Positions 2,506 through 64,000 of a DNA stretch of 64,000 nucleotides are shown here, in pieces. Below the pieces are notes generated by a model. The model was not told the origin of the DNA. It was given only the letters and a program-made list of their open reading frames with translations, and ran no database searches. The stretch lies in contig JALSNW010000052.1 in NCBI GenBank assembly GCA_026986785.1, positions 1-64,000 of the forward strand, in the 5' to 3' direction. This stretch comes from Deltaproteobacteria bacterium. Its GTDB lineage: Bacteria > Desulfobacterota > Dissulfuribacteria > Dissulfuribacterales > QOAL01. How positions within the stretch are numbered: the stretch's first letter is position 1; every line of letters begins with the position of its first letter. Made by a program: the position numbers and the translations under genes.

Positions 2506-3464
2506 CTTTGTTTCCTCACAATAAGCTCGCCTTGGCCTGAGGCAAGCACTGCTGCTGGTTCACATACCCCCCTTGCGCCAGTTGCCCGGAATACCGCTTC
2601 TGAATATCCGGTATCAGTTATGCTGTTCAGTTCCTGTGCACTGTAGAAAAAGAGATCGAGGCCAGTCTTGTTCGCAAAGTCAACAAGTCCTATCTCGTCT
2701 TTTTTTATATCTATTGATGCCAGCCGGCACAGGGAGTCAAGTGAAAGCCCGACGCTGATGAATGTATGGTTCAGTGCATCAGCTATCTTTTCAGGCGCGG
2801 TACCCCTATTACAGCCTATACCTGCCACCAATACTGGTGGATGCAGGATGAGTGCCCCCCTGTTCACCTGTCCCATGTGCTGTTCGCCTGTCCCCATGGC
2901 TTTAGAGCTTGGCGTCACTATCATGTCTGCTTCATATATGGAATCCACTTCTAAAAGATCATGGGGAAGAGGTGGCAGACCTGAATCAGAAAAGATAGAG
3001 AGTCTTCCCCTGTCCAAGAGCCTACCCATCAGCCTGGCCAATACCTCTGGGTTGGCAACCCTCAAGCCTTGATCCCTGATCCAGATGTCAAGTGCTGTGT
3101 TGCCCATGAGATCTGAGGCCGTGGTAACAACCGGCCTGGCACCCATGATGGCTGAGATCTTCCTGGCCAACCCATTCGCCCCGCCAAGGTGTCCAGAGAG
3201 TATGGGTATTATGTATTTGCCCTTTTGATCCATGACCAGTACGGCAGGGTCGGTCTTCTTGTCTTCAACAAGGGGGACAATGGTCCTTACCACTATACCT
3301 GTGGCCATTATGCAGATAAGCGCATCATAGTCTTTCCATGCCAAGGCAATGGCCTTGGCCGTGTTGCCCCTACAGCAAATGAGCTCGGCATTGGCCAAGT
3401 CTTTGGCCAGGGTCTTGCCGAGCCGTTCTGCCTCCTTGGTTATTGTCAAGACAGCTATCTTCAA
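2436..3464 (-). CDS. cbiG: Cobalt-precorrin 5A hydrolase
   Basis: CbiG opens the delta-lactone of cobalt-precorrin-5A and releases acetaldehyde. The 342 residues show the N-terminal domain (AVLTITKEAERLGKTLA, then ICIMATGIVVRTIVPL and LSGHLGGANGLARKI) and the C-terminal CbiG domain (VAGIGCNRGTAPEKI, then LASIDIKKDEIGL). The start is TTG at 3464 in a TTGA overlap with the cbiF stop codon, which suggests translational coupling. It lies between cbiF and cbiH, the pathway neighbours expected for this step. Confidence 0.93.
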   Translation of the reverse strand: MKIAVLTITKEAERLGKTLAKDLANAELICCRGNTAKAIALAWKDYDALICIMATGIVVRTIVPLVEDKKTDPAVLVMDQKGKYIIPILSGHLGGANGLARKISAIMGARPVVTTASDLMGNTALDIWIRDQGLRVANPEVLARLMGRLLDRGRLSIFSDSGLPPLPHDLLEVDSIYEADMIVTPSSKAMGTGEQHMGQVNRGALILHPPVLVAGIGCNRGTAPEKIADALNHTFISVGLSLDSLCRLASIDIKKDEIGLVDFANKTGLDLFFYSAQELNSITDTGYSEAVFRATGARGVCEPAAVLASGQGELIVRKQRCKDVTIAVAKATWPWWEQAPGQ

Positions 3465-15603: not shown

Positions 15604-16788
15604 ATGAAAAAGGTATGTTCAAGAAAGATTTTCATCAAGCTCGTTTTGACAGTGGCGGCAATAGGTATGTGGGCAGCTATTTCCCCATACGATGTCCAGG
15701 CCCAAGTCAAAGGTGTTACGGATTCTTCGGTATTGCTGTGTGCTTCAAATGCCCAGAGCGGCCCTGCTAAATTCCTAGGCCGGGAATATACCAAGGGATT
15801 CAATGCTGTGTTTTCACGAATCAACAAGAATGGGGGAATAAATGGCAGAAAGATAAAATTGAAGGTCTTGGACGATGGTTATGAGCCCAATAGGGCCATA
15901 GACAATACAAAGACCTTCATAAAAGAGGGCTGCTTCCTGTTGACCGGCTACGTGGGCACCCCTACCTCAAAGGCATCGGTACCCTTGGCAGAAAAGGCCT
16001 CCATACCATATTTTTTCCCGTTCACAGGTGCTGAATTCCTTAGAAATCCTGTAAGGCCCTTGGTATTCAACCTCCGTGCCTCATACTATATGGAGACAGA
16101 GGAGATGGTTCACTATCTATCGGACAAATTGGGACTCAAAAAGATCGCAATCTTTTACCAGGATGATTCATACGGAAGGGCTGGCCTTGCAGGTTTCAAG
16201 AAGGCAATGGAGAAGCGGGGACTCAAGATGGCAGGCGAGGCAACCTATCCCAGGAATACAGTGGCAGTAGGTAAGGCAGTTATTACCATGCGCAGGTTAA
16301 AGCCTGAGGCAATAGTCATGATAGGTGCCTACAAGCCCTGTGCTGAATTTATCAAGAAGGCCAAGAAGATAGGCCTGGCAGATACCAAGTTCATCAATAT
16401 CTCTTTCGTCGGTAGCAAGGCCCTGCTCAATGAGCTTGGTCCCCAGGGTGAAGGTGTCCTGGTGACCCAGGTGGTGCCGTTTCCGTGGGATTCCTCTCTG
16501 CCTGGGGTGAAAGAATATTCCAAGGTCATGAAAGAGGCCTACAAGGATTTCGAGCCTGGTTTCGTAAGCCTGGAGGGTTTTCTTGCTGCCAAGACACTGA
16601 CCGAGATCATGTCAAAGGCAGGGAAAGACCTTTCGAGGGAGTCGGTGGTGGCCTCTGCAAACAATCTGAGAGATTTCGATCTTGGCATAAACGATCCCAT
16701 ATCCTTTTCCAAGACAGACCACCAGGGCCTGGAAAAGGTCTATATCACTGTCATAAGCAACGGTAAGTTTCAACAGGTCAACTACTAA
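15604..16788 (+). CDS. Periplasmic LivK-type ligand-binding protein
   Basis: This is a type I periplasmic binding protein of the branched-chain amino acid/amide class (Peripla_BP_6), 394 residues. A signal peptide (KLVLTVAAIGMWAAISPYD, then VQAQ) precedes the mature domain. Fold markers include FNAVFSRINKNGGINGRKIK near the N-terminus, TGYVGTPTSKASVPLAEKA, and IAIFYQDDSYGRAGLAGFKK at the inter-domain strand. There are no permease or ATPase genes beside it. Instead a chemoreceptor begins 15 bp later, so the likely job is to present a ligand to that receptor. The ligand cannot be read from sequence. Confidence 0.88.
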   Translation: MKKVCSRKIFIKLVLTVAAIGMWAAISPYDVQAQVKGVTDSSVLLCASNAQSGPAKFLGREYTKGFNAVFSRINKNGGINGRKIKLKVLDDGYEPNRAIDNTKTFIKEGCFLLTGYVGTPTSKASVPLAEKASIPYFFPFTGAEFLRNPVRPLVFNLRASYYMETEEMVHYLSDKLGLKKIAIFYQDDSYGRAGLAGFKKAMEKRGLKMAGEATYPRNTVAVGKAVITMRRLKPEAIVMIGAYKPCAEFIKKAKKIGLADTKFINISFVGSKALLNELGPQGEGVLVTQVVPFPWDSSLPGVKEYSKVMKEAYKDFEPGFVSLEGFLAAKTLTEIMSKAGKDLSRESVVASANNLRDFDLGINDPISFSKTDHQGLEKVYITVISNGKFQQVNY

Positions 16789-57970: not shown

Positions 57971-58027
57971 CCTCAGGCATTTGAAGCCACAAGGATCTGG
58001 CAATTTCAACAGATTTGTCAACTCGCC
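57971..58027 (+). repeat. Third repeat module, shared with 28441-28495
   Basis: CTCAGGCATTTGAAGCCAC, AAGGATCTGGCAATTTC, AACAGATTTG, then TCGCCAGG. About three quarters identical by eye to the inverted module at 28441-28495. Confidence 0.65.
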
Positions 58028-59401: not shown

Positions 59402-61375
59402 TCATTTTATTTCCTCTGTACACGCAACCCAATGGCCGGATTTTATTTCTCTCAGTTGTGGTAAGTTTAATCTGCAATAGTCTTTCTTAATTGGACAATA
59501 AGGATAAAATGGGCACATCAAAGTATTCCAATTCACGTCTGGCACCGGAGAGGGTTTTTTATAACGACGACGCTCAATTGCAGGATCAGTTGTAAGCACC
59601 GCTGACATTAGTAACTCAGTATAGGGATGAAGTGGGCAATTGTAAACTTCTTCAGACGGCCCAAGTTCTACAATCTTACCCTTGTACATGACCACAGTAA
59701 TAGTGCTCATGAGTCTTATGATTTCAAGATCATGTGAAATCAGGACCAATGCCATCTGCTCTTTTTGTTTCTGCCTTAATAATCCCAGTATCCTCGAACA
59801 CGTATAAGTATCAACTGCGCTCACGGGCTCGTCAGCAAATAGAAGTTTTGGCTTTGTGATTAATGCCCTGGCAATGGCAATCCTCTGCTTTTGGCCATGG
59901 CTCAGTTCAATTGGATATCTATCTAACAACTCTTGTTCTAGATTAAGTTGATCAAACAACTCCTCAGCTGCAGTCCTCGCCTGAATCTTATCAGGATAGA
60001 CCCTGTGAAGGAGAGCTGGCTCCAATATAATGTCCATGACACGCATCTTTGGATTAAGGCTTGCGTCAGGATTCTGAAATACACCCTGCATCTGCGCCCT
60101 GTACGGCCTTAGAGCTCCATATCCCATGTTCGTGATATCTCTGCCTTCAAATACGATCCGACCATTTTCTATAGGGAGTAATCGCAGTGCCGCTTTCATC
60201 GCGGTTGTCTTTCCAGCTGCACTTTCACCTACAATTCCAAGACATTGCCCTGGTTGGACATTAAAGGAGACATGCTGTACTGCAAGATTCCTCCTATTCC
60301 TACGAAATAGATCCCTGAATGACAATCCTGATCTATATGACACTGACAAATCATGGACATCTATTATTGGGGTGTTCTCCTTTGATGGAAAGACCGACGT
60401 ACTATCTATTGTGTTAGAGTTGACCATAGATATTCGCCCTGATAGGTGGCACCGTACTAGGACATGGTCAGATACCCGAGTAAGATCAGGTAATCGAGTA
60501 CGGCAAATGTCAACGACGAAATCGCATCTACTTGCAAAGGGACAGCCGGGATAGCTCCTTTTTAAATCACCCGGGCTTTTAGATGTTGGCTTTTCCAGAT
60601 GATAAAGTGAATGAAGCAGACTCATTGTATAAGGATGGTGGGGATTTTTAAGGATCACTTCAACCTTACCTGACTCCATGACAAGGCCTTCCAGCAAGAC
60701 TGTTACATAGTCGGCTGTCCTTGCGACCACTCCCATATCATGGGTCACAAAAAGCACACCTAATCCTTCTTCATCACAAAGTGATCTAATGAGGTCAAGT
60801 ACCTTTACCTGTCGAGTACGGTCCACAGCAGTTGTGGGCTCATCGGCTATCAACAGTTTTGGGGTATTGAGCAGGGCCATCCCGATTAATAATCTTTGGC
60901 GCATCCCCCCTGAAAGCTGATGTGGATAGGAATTGAGCACTCTGTCTCTATCCGCAAGATCAAGAAGTGCAAGTATATTTTTAAAACGTTCAATTGCTTT
61001 TCTTGAAGACAGGTTCCTTCGTGCAGCAATCTCAATTGCCTGTCTTCGTATAGAGAGAAAGGGATTGAGCCCAGCATAGGCAGATTGTGGTATAAAGGTG
61101 ATATCAGTACCCAAGAGCTTCCTGCGCTCTTTGTGATTCATATGCAGGATATCCTTGCCTTCAAAAAGCACCTCTCCAAGAACGGTTATATCTCCATTTA
61201 AAAAAAATTTTACAAGTCCAAGCATTGCAAGGGTTGCTGTGGTCTTGCCACTTCCACTCTCGCCCACAAGTGCTGTGGTCTTGCCTCTGTGAACATTTAA
61301 AGATAGATCTTGCAGGATATACCCATTATAATTTTCCGTTGATAGGGATACCTTGAGGCCCTTTACAACCAGCAA
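59402..61375 (-). CDS. Fused double ABC ATPase of oligopeptide/nickel (Opp/Dpp) type
   Basis: This 657-residue protein carries two ATPase domains equivalent to DppD and DppF in one chain. Domain 1 has GESGSGKTTATLAML, LSGGMRQRLLIG, LLIADEPTTAVD and a C-terminal Cys motif (CPFASRCDFVVDICR). Domain 2 has GESAAGKTTAMKAAL, a deviant signature LSHGQKQRIAIARA, LLFADEPVSAVD and CPFYPYCPIKKDYCRL. Such Cys motifs occur at the ends of peptide-ABC ATPases and can bind an Fe-S cluster. The start is TTG at 61375, one base after the stop of the AAA+ gene. No permease or binding protein is in the window. Base composition is AT-richer than its neighbours. Confidence 0.9.
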   Translation of the reverse strand: MLVVKGLKVSLSTENYNGYILQDLSLNVHRGKTTALVGESGSGKTTATLAMLGLVKFFLNGDITVLGEVLFEGKDILHMNHKERRKLLGTDITFIPQSAYAGLNPFLSIRRQAIEIAARRNLSSRKAIERFKNILALLDLADRDRVLNSYPHQLSGGMRQRLLIGMALLNTPKLLIADEPTTAVDRTRQVKVLDLIRSLCDEEGLGVLFVTHDMGVVARTADYVTVLLEGLVMESGKVEVILKNPHHPYTMSLLHSLYHLEKPTSKSPGDLKRSYPGCPFASRCDFVVDICRTRLPDLTRVSDHVLVRCHLSGRISMVNSNTIDSTSVFPSKENTPIIDVHDLSVSYRSGLSFRDLFRRNRRNLAVQHVSFNVQPGQCLGIVGESAAGKTTAMKAALRLLPIENGRIVFEGRDITNMGYGALRPYRAQMQGVFQNPDASLNPKMRVMDIILEPALLHRVYPDKIQARTAAEELFDQLNLEQELLDRYPIELSHGQKQRIAIARALITKPKLLFADEPVSAVDTYTCSRILGLLRQKQKEQMALVLISHDLEIIRLMSTITVVMYKGKIVELGPSEEVYNCPLHPYTELLMSAVLTTDPAIERRRYKKPSPVPDVNWNTLMCPFYPYCPIKKDYCRLNLPQLREIKSGHWVACTEEIK

Positions 61376-61376
61376 A

Positions 61377-64000
61377 TCAGACCCCTGGATTGACGATATA
61401 ATTGAGAAGCTTTGGGAGGTTTACGGCGAGTATGTCGCTCAATCTCGCATTGAGAAAAGCCTCGCTTATTTCAGGAGATTGAAATTCCGCCTGTTGCTCT
61501 GCAAGAGCAACTTCTTCAAGGATTCCAACAAATAATCTCGTTGTGATCTGCTTTACAAGGTTTTTCTTTATGAAATAGAAATCAGCCTTGGGGAAATCCA
61601 TCATCTCAATGGTTCTTTTGAAGTAAAAATCTATTGTGTCAAAGAGATTCTCTAAAAATCTTCTTCTGCGATCATCATTTGGATTTTTTACACCTTTTGC
61701 TTTCTTCTCAAGAATAGTCATCATGATGGATACGAAATCCATTCGATTTATCCTTCGTTCATCATCATTTTCATATAGGAAGTAATCCGTTATAGGTGCT
61801 GGATAGACGGGTGGAAAGATAATGAGTCGGCTTAAAAGATCTGGGCGGAACCCTTGCTGCCTTGAAGCTGTCCTCGTCTCTTCATATAACTTAACTAAGG
61901 CTCTTATGTCCTTATGGGTTGCTGCAACAATCCTGATGTTGCCAACATCTTCTTGGATGGACTCCCATCCAAGCCTGCTTACCTTTTTCTCCTCAAGTGG
62001 GCCGAGGAGGTTGTCCTGAATCTTTATTGGCGCATCGGCAATCTCATCGAGAAAGACAGTGGCCGCCATGTAGCTTGCAGTCTGAAACAGCCCAGGCATG
62101 GGCATTTCAACATTTTCTGCAGTTCCGAAAAGTCGTCTCATAGAGGAAATAAATTCTGGCCCCTGTTCTGCTAAGGAACCACAGAGAACCTGGATAAAGT
62201 TTCCTGAGGTCTGTGGTTTTTCGTTTTTAATGCCATATACAGCATACAGTAGTCTTGCCAGATAGTGAGCCAAGAATTGCACTGAGAGATCAATACTGTT
62301 ATCGTTTGCAATGTTAGATGGAATATCTTGGGTTAGCCTCTTTAGATAAGAATTCGAAGACGACAGGTCTGAATTGGATTTCATACTAAGAGGGCAGCTG
62401 GCACAAACTCCTTTTACTTCTAGGAACCCTTTCTCGTCTCTCATGATTTTCGTACATAGGGTATCTTTTTCACAAGCCCAAATCTGCTTATCCCCTTTTT
62501 CACCACCTTTCAAAGGAGGAATCCATTGCCACCACCTTGTGCCTTGGAGCTGGGCCTTTGTAAAATCAAGAAGTTTTTTGCTAGAATTAACATCAGGCGC
62601 AATATTATCCATGACATCCCGCGCCCTTGGCAACATAAGGATATTAATTAGTCTTTTCCATAGTCCTTCTATTGTTTCCTTAAGTAAGTGTCCTTCTTTA
62701 TCTTTAGTGATCTCTTTAATGGCAAGTTCGTGATATCTTGTTGCAGTCAAGCCCTTCCCACCACCGGGGGCGCCAAGGAGGAGAATCTTTCCAGTTAGAG
62801 GATTCAAACCAACATGACGCACCAGATCAGCCATGAGTTTTGTTGACTTGCTTCCCTTGATTTTGATAACATCTCTTACATCCAGGGCAGAATTGATTGT
62901 ATCTGCTGACTGTTCAAGAAATTCTCGTATAAACAAAAGTCTTGCCCTAGAGCGTGTAAAATTGTCTCCTTGAGGATCCTCATTACTCAAGAAGGATTTC
63001 CAGAGCGTCAAGCTATCCTGGGCCGTGTTTATATCTTTTAGGGCCTGTGAAATCTTAATGGAATCTTCTTCTTCATAATCCAAAAACGTTGAAATTTCTT
63101 GATTAAGCAAGGCCTGTTCAGGTGACGCCCCCAAAAAAGCAAGCACTCTTGCCATCCATTCAAGTGCTTCTCTTGCATACATCACACGAAGGAGTTTCTT
63201 TGCCCTATCAGGGAAATTAAAAAAATCTTCTTTAAATTTCTGGTAGGCTTTTTGTAAATGACTATATTTTTCAAGGAATGAGAATTCACTTGAGGACTCC
63301 ATTTTCATAATGGTATTTACAAGCCTACCCACCCACTCAAAAAACCATGACTTTCGTGCCTCTTTCATGGCATATGTGAGGCCCAATAGATGTCTAGCGG
63401 GCTCAGGAGGAGATTGAGGATCAATAAAAAATGAATATACTAAATCTGGGATCTTATCATAGAAAAAGGAAATGGGACCAACAACGATATTAACTTTGTT
63501 TGTAGCCGGAGCAATCAGGCCCCCTTCTTTAAGGATTTCCTGGCCAAACCGTCCCCACCATATCGTTTTAGCCTGAAAAAGGCTTTCACCTGCTATCCAC
63601 AACATATTATCGGGTTCCCATTTATTAAGAACCTCTTTTCTTATATAGAAGTGATCTCTATGGCTCCGGATAAATGGTATACCTCCAGTGCCCTCTAAGC
63701 TCCTCAGAAATTCACTTACATAGAGTCCTCGAGCATCAAAACTCTGGGGAAGTACTGCATAAAGAGCTATAATACATTCTCGGCATGTCTTAAAAGGTTG
63801 TTGGCAATTCTCTGGAATAGAATGCAGCCCATTTTCCAGAATAGAACCAGCTTTTTCTAGTGACTTTACCACAATAACACGTGAAAATTTGCAAGGTTTA
63901 TAATTTCCTTCTTCAAATGGAAAAGAGGGTTGTAAAAGTAAAAAGCGTCGAAAACATGTAAAATTATTATTATGATTAAAATAGTTGACAGGAAGAGGTA
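61377..64000 (-). CDS. Sigma-54-activator-like AAA+ protein with Cys-rich insert, cut by window edge
   Basis: At least 831 residues. Counting from GTG 63872, residues 1-340 match no family I know. An AAA+ domain follows: Walker A LLGAPGGGKGLTA (about 366), LFGTAENVEMPMPGLFQTA where sigma-54 activators have the GAFTGA loop, Walker B TVFLDEIADAP (about 600), sensor IRIVAATHKDI and Arg finger GFRPDLLSRLIIFPP. Walker A and B are some 235 residues apart, against about 65-70 in NtrC proteins. The insert has CEKDTLC and CASC, suggesting a zinc or Fe-S knuckle (about 465-495). No HTH follows. The frame continues open, without an ATG, to base 64000 (CFRRFLLLQPSFPFEEG), so the true start is probably outside. 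Confidence 0.75.
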   Translation of the reverse strand, partial: PLPVNYFNHNNNFTCFRRFLLLQPSFPFEEGNYKPCKFSRVIVVKSLEKAGSILENGLHSIPENCQQPFKTCRECIIALYAVLPQSFDARGLYVSEFLRSLEGTGGIPFIRSHRDHFYIRKEVLNKWEPDNMLWIAGESLFQAKTIWWGRFGQEILKEGGLIAPATNKVNIVVGPISFFYDKIPDLVYSFFIDPQSPPEPARHLLGLTYAMKEARKSWFFEWVGRLVNTIMKMESSSEFSFLEKYSHLQKAYQKFKEDFFNFPDRAKKLLRVMYAREALEWMARVLAFLGASPEQALLNQEISTFLDYEEEDSIKISQALKDINTAQDSLTLWKSFLSNEDPQGDNFTRSRARLLFIREFLEQSADTINSALDVRDVIKIKGSKSTKLMADLVRHVGLNPLTGKILLLGAPGGGKGLTATRYHELAIKEITKDKEGHLLKETIEGLWKRLINILMLPRARDVMDNIAPDVNSSKKLLDFTKAQLQGTRWWQWIPPLKGGEKGDKQIWACEKDTLCTKIMRDEKGFLEVKGVCASCPLSMKSNSDLSSSNSYLKRLTQDIPSNIANDNSIDLSVQFLAHYLARLLYAVYGIKNEKPQTSGNFIQVLCGSLAEQGPEFISSMRRLFGTAENVEMPMPGLFQTASYMAATVFLDEIADAPIKIQDNLLGPLEEKKVSRLGWESIQEDVGNIRIVAATHKDIRALVKLYEETRTASRQQGFRPDLLSRLIIFPPVYPAPITDYFLYENDDERRINRMDFVSIMMTILEKKAKGVKNPNDDRRRRFLENLFDTIDFYFKRTIEMMDFPKADFYFIKKNLVKQITTRLFVGILEEVALAEQQAEFQSPEISEAFLNARLSDILAVNLPKLLNYIVNPGV

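Follow-up and report, generated by a model that had tools for sequence, protein, structure and literature searches.

A sigma-54-activator-like AAA+ protein with a replaced L1 loop and a cysteine-bearing insert, encoded in a conserved radical SAM and Opp-type importer cassette

Several described systems resemble parts of the locus reported here. RtcR, the RNA-repair activator, carries a CARF domain, GAFTGA and a helix-turn-helix (HTH), while RuvBL1 and RuvBL2 (pontin and reptin) are AAA+ remodellers with a large OB-fold domain inserted between Walker A and Walker B. In bacterial enhancer-binding proteins (bEBPs), the GAFTGA of loop L1 has been linked to sigma-54 contact, and members without a DNA-binding domain are on record (PMC7175178). 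Caulobacter NtrC has no GAFTGA, yet it regulates transcription and is active at sigma-70 promoters; alleles of it with a defective HTH still activate some sigma-54 genes (PMC12421884). Among peptide systems, RaS-RiPPs use radical SAM enzymes to modify tiny peptides, and in streptococci Opp permeases return peptide signals (PMC13361665). MoxR-vWA and FtsH ternary conflict systems have been reported to unite an AAA+ protein with radical SAM and tiny variable peptide genes (PMC7159879).

The AAA+ gene considered here overruns the end of the window, that is, the whole stretch of 64,000 nucleotides analyzed. The full protein comprises 921 aa from a GTG start, and its contig (C52) belongs to a 2.59 Mb genome assembled in 52 contigs. 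The gene and its core motifs are located as follows.

61377..64000 in the window, continuing on the contig to ~64142, minus strand: AAA+ gene, from the open reading frame and its orthologues
62751..62774, minus strand: Walker A, GAPGGGKG
62034..62057, minus strand: Walker B, VFLDEIAD
61908..61928, minus strand: sensor 1 region, VAATHKD
61824..61853, minus strand: arginine-finger motif, GFRPDLLSRL

A preliminary description made from the window had given the coordinates, strand and motif calls of this reading frame correctly, and the gap of ~235 residues that it proposed between Walker A and Walker B comes to 236 when counted from lysine to aspartate, a distance due to extra sequence that follows helix 1 and precedes strand 2. 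Pfam Sigma54_activat (PF00158) matches the core, and only the core, at 2.7e-15, so the resemblance to sigma-54 activators is not due to chance; PDB matches are likewise bEBP cores, e.g. FleQ, NtrC and PspF. The protein shares with these bEBPs the order of the core, Walker A and B, the sensor 1 region and the FRxDLxxRL fingers. With Walker A, Walker B and both arginine-finger arginines intact, a working ATPase would be expected. The best NCBIfam match is RtcR, at 58 bits against a cut-off of 650, and RtcR was also top by score in PADLOC, which returned generic core matches only. The likeness to RtcR is confined to this generic core, and none of its CARF, GAFTGA and HTH elements was detected. 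No transmembrane segment was found in the protein.

Beyond these shared motifs, the protein departs from bEBPs in several places. Its core was aligned with those of 19 strong sigma-54-activator matches from the same genome, and the altered or added parts are listed below.

62091..62126, minus strand: L1-loop position, GTAENVEMPMPG replacing GAFTGA and four residues shorter, from the alignment
62208..62705, minus strand: insert separating helix 1 from strand 2 in the AAA+ core and carrying four invariant cysteines, from the alignment with the 19 own-genome bEBPs
62394..62477, minus strand: cysteine motif of the insert, C-x5-C ... C-x2-C (CEKDTLC, CASC)
63771..63899, minus strand: N-terminal cysteine cluster, C-x28-C-x6-C-x2-C in this protein, its four cysteines invariant in three orthologues
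61380..61796, minus strand: C-terminal region where bEBPs have their lid end and HTH, closing with a conserved FLNAR...LLN.IV

The substitute L1 loop reads GTAE(N/G/K)VEMP(M/L)PG across all three members of the family, with AExVEMPxP as its conserved core, whereas every one of the 19 own-genome bEBPs has a GAFT-like loop and none has the cysteine insert; their Walker A to Walker B spacing is 65–67 residues where the motif search caught both sites. At the switch position, those bEBPs carry asparagine (18 of 19) or aspartate (one), and the AAA+ protein carries leucine; the family has VLCG or ILCG where bEBPs have VNC. The PPLRxR lid start and the GNxREL sensor-2 motif are also missing, and no GNxREL could be aligned. 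The losses of the switch asparagine, PPLRxR and GNxREL are additions to the preliminary description. The own-genome bEBPs end in HTH-like sequence, as read by eye from the alignment; in the AAA+ protein, unlike bEBPs, searches of Pfam and NCBIfam gave no HTH, and the C-terminal region has no similarity to theirs and no match elsewhere.

The insert of ~160 residues and the unique N- and C-terminal regions further separate the protein from bEBPs. The insert spans ~168 residues here and 154 and 163 in the relatives, and all four cysteines of CEKDTLC and CASC are invariant in the three orthologues; they may form a zinc or Fe-S site. An insertion between Walker A and Walker B is, by general knowledge, a likeness to RuvBL1 and RuvBL2, while the four cysteines set this insert apart. 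The N-terminal region, ~460 residues ahead of Walker A, matches nothing in Pfam or NCBIfam, and its profile has no significant match in the PDB. Thus, what the preliminary description had said of these parts largely stands: GAFTGA is replaced in this protein and in both orthologues, a cysteine-bearing insert put at ~165 residues measures ~154–168 in the three members, the cysteines whose conservation it had left to be checked are conserved, and the C-terminal HTH is missing. The N-terminal region was rightly called unrecognized; its length of >340 residues was too short because the window end cuts the protein. The idea of a new N-terminal domain holds only in the sense that no relative is detectable, as the AlphaFold prediction had a pLDDT of 33.5 and is unusable as a structure model.

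These features bear directly on whether the protein could regulate transcription in an atypical way, as a bEBP derivative that works on sigma-54 or sigma-70 polymerase from solution and so controls its own operon. Its core is clearly bEBP-like, and both the recorded bEBPs without a DNA-binding domain (PMC7175178) and Caulobacter NtrC (PMC12421884) offer precedents; since the latter regulates without GAFTGA, motif loss is a strong but not a decisive argument. However, L1 is not only shortened but rebuilt, the switch asparagine, sensor-2 motif and HTH are all lost, a large insert has been gained, and the new loop has been conserved as though it served a different partner. The gene is moreover embedded in a transporter operon. 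We consider such a regulator highly improbable, and the protein is very probably not a conventional sigma-54 activator.

A search of ~500 genomes of the phylum with a profile of the N-terminal region plus insert returned three strong matches only: the genome itself; a congener (G001), with 62% identity and a contig matching JALVJO010000077.1, a Deltaproteobacteria MAG; and a genome from a different class of the phylum (G308), with 48–54% identity. The family thus has three known members. Genome-contig scans found no relatives at first and only the congener in a second round; these scans start from short peptide patterns that must match exactly and may have overlooked relatives in other phyla. 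Viral contigs yielded no relatives, and plasmids gave partial core matches only, most of the others listed being annotated as sigma-54 regulators. The best plasmid match, from Persicobacter, is an ordinary bEBP with GAFSGA, and weak own-genome matches on contigs C31 and C23 are ClpB- and ClpA-like. Both orthologues share the altered L1 loop, the cysteine insert and the HTH loss, and Pfam, NCBIfam and PADLOC place the protein no closer than the generic core. Neither a close homologue with intact GAFTGA and HTH nor a described AAA+ family for the protein was therefore found, which supports the preliminary reading of a remodelling ATPase or sensor built on a repurposed AAA+ core, and no ordinary activator. 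The protein founds a small AAA+ family for which we found no description.

The genomic setting of the gene lies mostly beyond the window end, out of sight of the preliminary description. In all three genomes, the gene is part of a cassette of eight genes in the same order: radical SAM enzyme, OppA-like SBP_bac_5 protein, Opp-type permeases B and C, ORF1, ORF2, AAA+ protein and fused OppDF. Most of these genes overlap or sit a few tens of bases apart, with gaps of up to 275 bases around ORF1 and ORF2. The last gene falls within the window.

59402..61375, minus strand: fused OppD-OppF-type ABC ATPase gene, last in the cassette, one base from the AAA+ gene

OppDF unites both ATPase domains in one protein of 657 aa, and neither its length nor its position differs in the two relatives. 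Together, the SBP_bac_5 protein, two BPD_transp_1 permeases and paired ABC ATPases with oligo_HPY make up an Opp/Dpp-type importer, and the AAA+ gene sits between the permease and ATPase genes of this one transporter, one base from or overlapping the ATPase gene. An assembly chimera is ruled out, as the cassette agrees across three independent genomes. Among the 395 genomes common to the AAA+, radical SAM and ORF1 profile searches, each profile picks the genome of this contig and G308; the radical SAM profile adds one far weaker match (76 bits, G150), and five further AAA+ matches with E values of 0.001–0.01 are regarded as noise. The AAA+ protein almost certainly forms a functional unit with the cassette. 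A literature search found no description of such a cassette.

The radical SAM enzyme (Pfam 3.7e-14) contains CX3CX2C as an invariant CNLxCxHC. Its C-terminus carries an invariant C-x4-C-x3-C-x6-C, the spacing of which we take to differ from the standard auxiliary-cluster spacing, and no SPASM/twitch model scored over cut-off. The enzyme matches peptide maturases weakly, and heme-d1 and MoaA enzymes about equally; its profile gave a single weak generic match in plasmids. ORF1 encodes a small helical protein of 70, 82 and 92 aa in the three genomes. ORF2, preceded by a Shine-Dalgarno-like sequence, encodes a basic peptide (55, 61 and 54 aa; pI above 10) that has the conserved start and variable remainder of a small precursor-like peptide near a radical SAM gene. 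Its start, M(A/G)SxAGSKG(G/S)(I/L)(V/I) with invariant AGSKG, is under purifying selection: the first 12 codons differ by 2–6 synonymous changes per pair, while the remainder diverges and overall identity is 29–38%. A small peptide under selection would look like this, as a precursor should, yet small peptides of other kinds could show the same. In the 395-genome sample, the ORF2 DNA pattern picked both operons and six other genomes, the latter at about control or chance level. No known RiPP family matched ORF2, the conserved part of which is N-terminal, and no exporter or maturation protease lies within the cassette. The stretch between ORF1 and the AAA+ gene gave no Rfam match and no unusual folding.

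The enzyme and transporter matches could also point to a peptide-derived cofactor or metallophore, in which the radical SAM enzyme would build a redox cofactor or metal carrier out of ORF2 or some other peptide, the ABC transporter would import it, and the cysteine-rich AAA+ protein would function as MoxR/NorQ do, as a chaperone that handles the metal or inserts the cofactor. The two invariant cysteine clusters, the Opp/Nik-type transporter subunits and the heme-d1 and MoaA enzymes among the radical SAM matches are consistent with this scheme. However, scores for NikD and OppD have no discriminating power in this superfamily, and in none of the three genomes does the cassette include an oxidoreductase or metal enzyme that would depend on such a product. 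We rate the scheme as distinctly unlikely.

The distribution and surroundings of the cassette raise another alternative. In all three genomes, the cassette is lower in GC than neighbouring or host DNA (0.423 vs. 0.488; 0.445 vs. 0.465; 0.496 vs. 0.56). The cassette adjoins yceG in G000; in G001, yceG is on another contig, among other neighbours. In G308, the cassette is flanked by direct repeats 12.86 kb apart, with 92–97% identity per segment.

L055:3134-3733 and 15987-16591: direct repeats of G308, each a gene remnant with a weak DnaA-C-like HTH

Given the sporadic distribution, low GC, differing sites and repeats, lateral transfer of the cassette is likely. Several smaller features were seen nearby. 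An integrase-core transposase fragment occupies L046:13599-13832 of G001, at the contig end just past the cassette. In the window, a 44-nt stretch (57976-58019) is 84% identical to L046:981-1024 and 3013-3056 upstream of the G001 cassette and is apparently a dispersed genomic repeat. In G308, genes for a trypsin-like protease and, next after it, a PD-T4-10_B homologue (PADLOC 7e-36) lie at L055:1028-2453, just outside the repeats, and an extra 484-aa ORF, missing from the other two cassettes, overlaps the OppDF gene end (L055:14246-15700), with matches to bDLD2 (E 0.016, subthreshold) and ESAT6_2 (2.8e-5, under cut-off).

Such mobility, the adjoining protease and PD-T4-10_B genes and the bDLD2 match of the ninth gene would suit a conflict (defence) system, in which the modified peptide would be an effector or alarm and the AAA+ protein, with its large N-terminus, a sensor or threshold-setting chaperone releasing it. 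MoxR-vWA/FtsH systems likewise combine an AAA+ protein, a radical SAM enzyme and a tiny variable peptide (PMC7159879). Nevertheless, the cassette differs from them in its AAA+ clade and in having an Opp-type importer instead of vWA, MoxR, FtsH or metallopeptidase components; vWA and MoxR are missing from the cassette genes of all three genomes, as are a nuclease and a caspase. Descriptions of those systems include no Opp importer, and the term "ABC transporter" does not occur in the text of PMC7159879. PADLOC, as noted, recognizes only the generic AAA+ core. Because the defence genes occur in G308 alone and are placed beyond its repeats, we keep defence as a rival reading that is unlikely.

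The explanation we favour, with somewhat less than even confidence, is that the AAA+ protein does not activate transcription but works as a remodelling ATPase for a radical-SAM-modified peptide and the importer of that peptide. It would be a cytoplasmic ATPase of enhancer-binding (NtrC/PspF) descent that no longer contacts sigma-54 or DNA. ORF2 would be a ribosomally made precursor modified by the radical SAM enzyme; the evidence leaves this substrate assignment about evenly balanced. The Opp-type importer would take up the modified product or a related external peptide, import being the default direction because a substrate-binding protein is present. The AAA+ protein may form a ring in which the cysteine insert and the substituted L1 loop contact the substrate, and it would bind and remodel either the peptide or a partner, for instance ORF1 or the importer. 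Its constant place within the same eight-gene set argues that it probably acts on a peptide and not on genes; the specific proposal of a peptide or peptide-linked target is tentative. Counting against the explanation are the lack of an exporter and a maturation protease in the cassette, the N-terminal position of the conserved part of ORF2, the generic matches of the radical SAM enzyme, the small family of three and the example of Caulobacter NtrC.

This arrangement has in common with streptococcal RaS-RiPP and Rgg/SHP circuits a radical SAM enzyme, a tiny precursor and Opp import (PMC13361665). Unlike the streptococcal circuits, the cassette has no Rgg-type regulator, exporter or protease, and its host is no streptococcus; the AAA+ protein would hold the receiver position. 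For the pairing of a radical SAM enzyme with a peptide, the conflict systems regulated by AAA+ proteins are a further precedent (PMC7159879). The broader picture, an undescribed peptide system in which an enhancer-binding-type motor has been turned into a receiver or remodeller of an imported radical-SAM-modified peptide within one laterally moving eight-gene unit, is conceivable, and we offer it with more doubt than belief. The AAA+ protein belongs to a known superfamily, and the cassette may be a new system.

Enhancer-binding proteins are textbook AAA+ motors acting on RNA polymerase. A member that kept its ATPase, swapped its substrate loop and gained a cysteine-rich insert would show how such a motor gets retargeted, and the family provides a natural L1-loop swap for study. 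The cassette, in turn, is a concrete candidate for a new import-linked pathway in which a radical SAM enzyme modifies a peptide.
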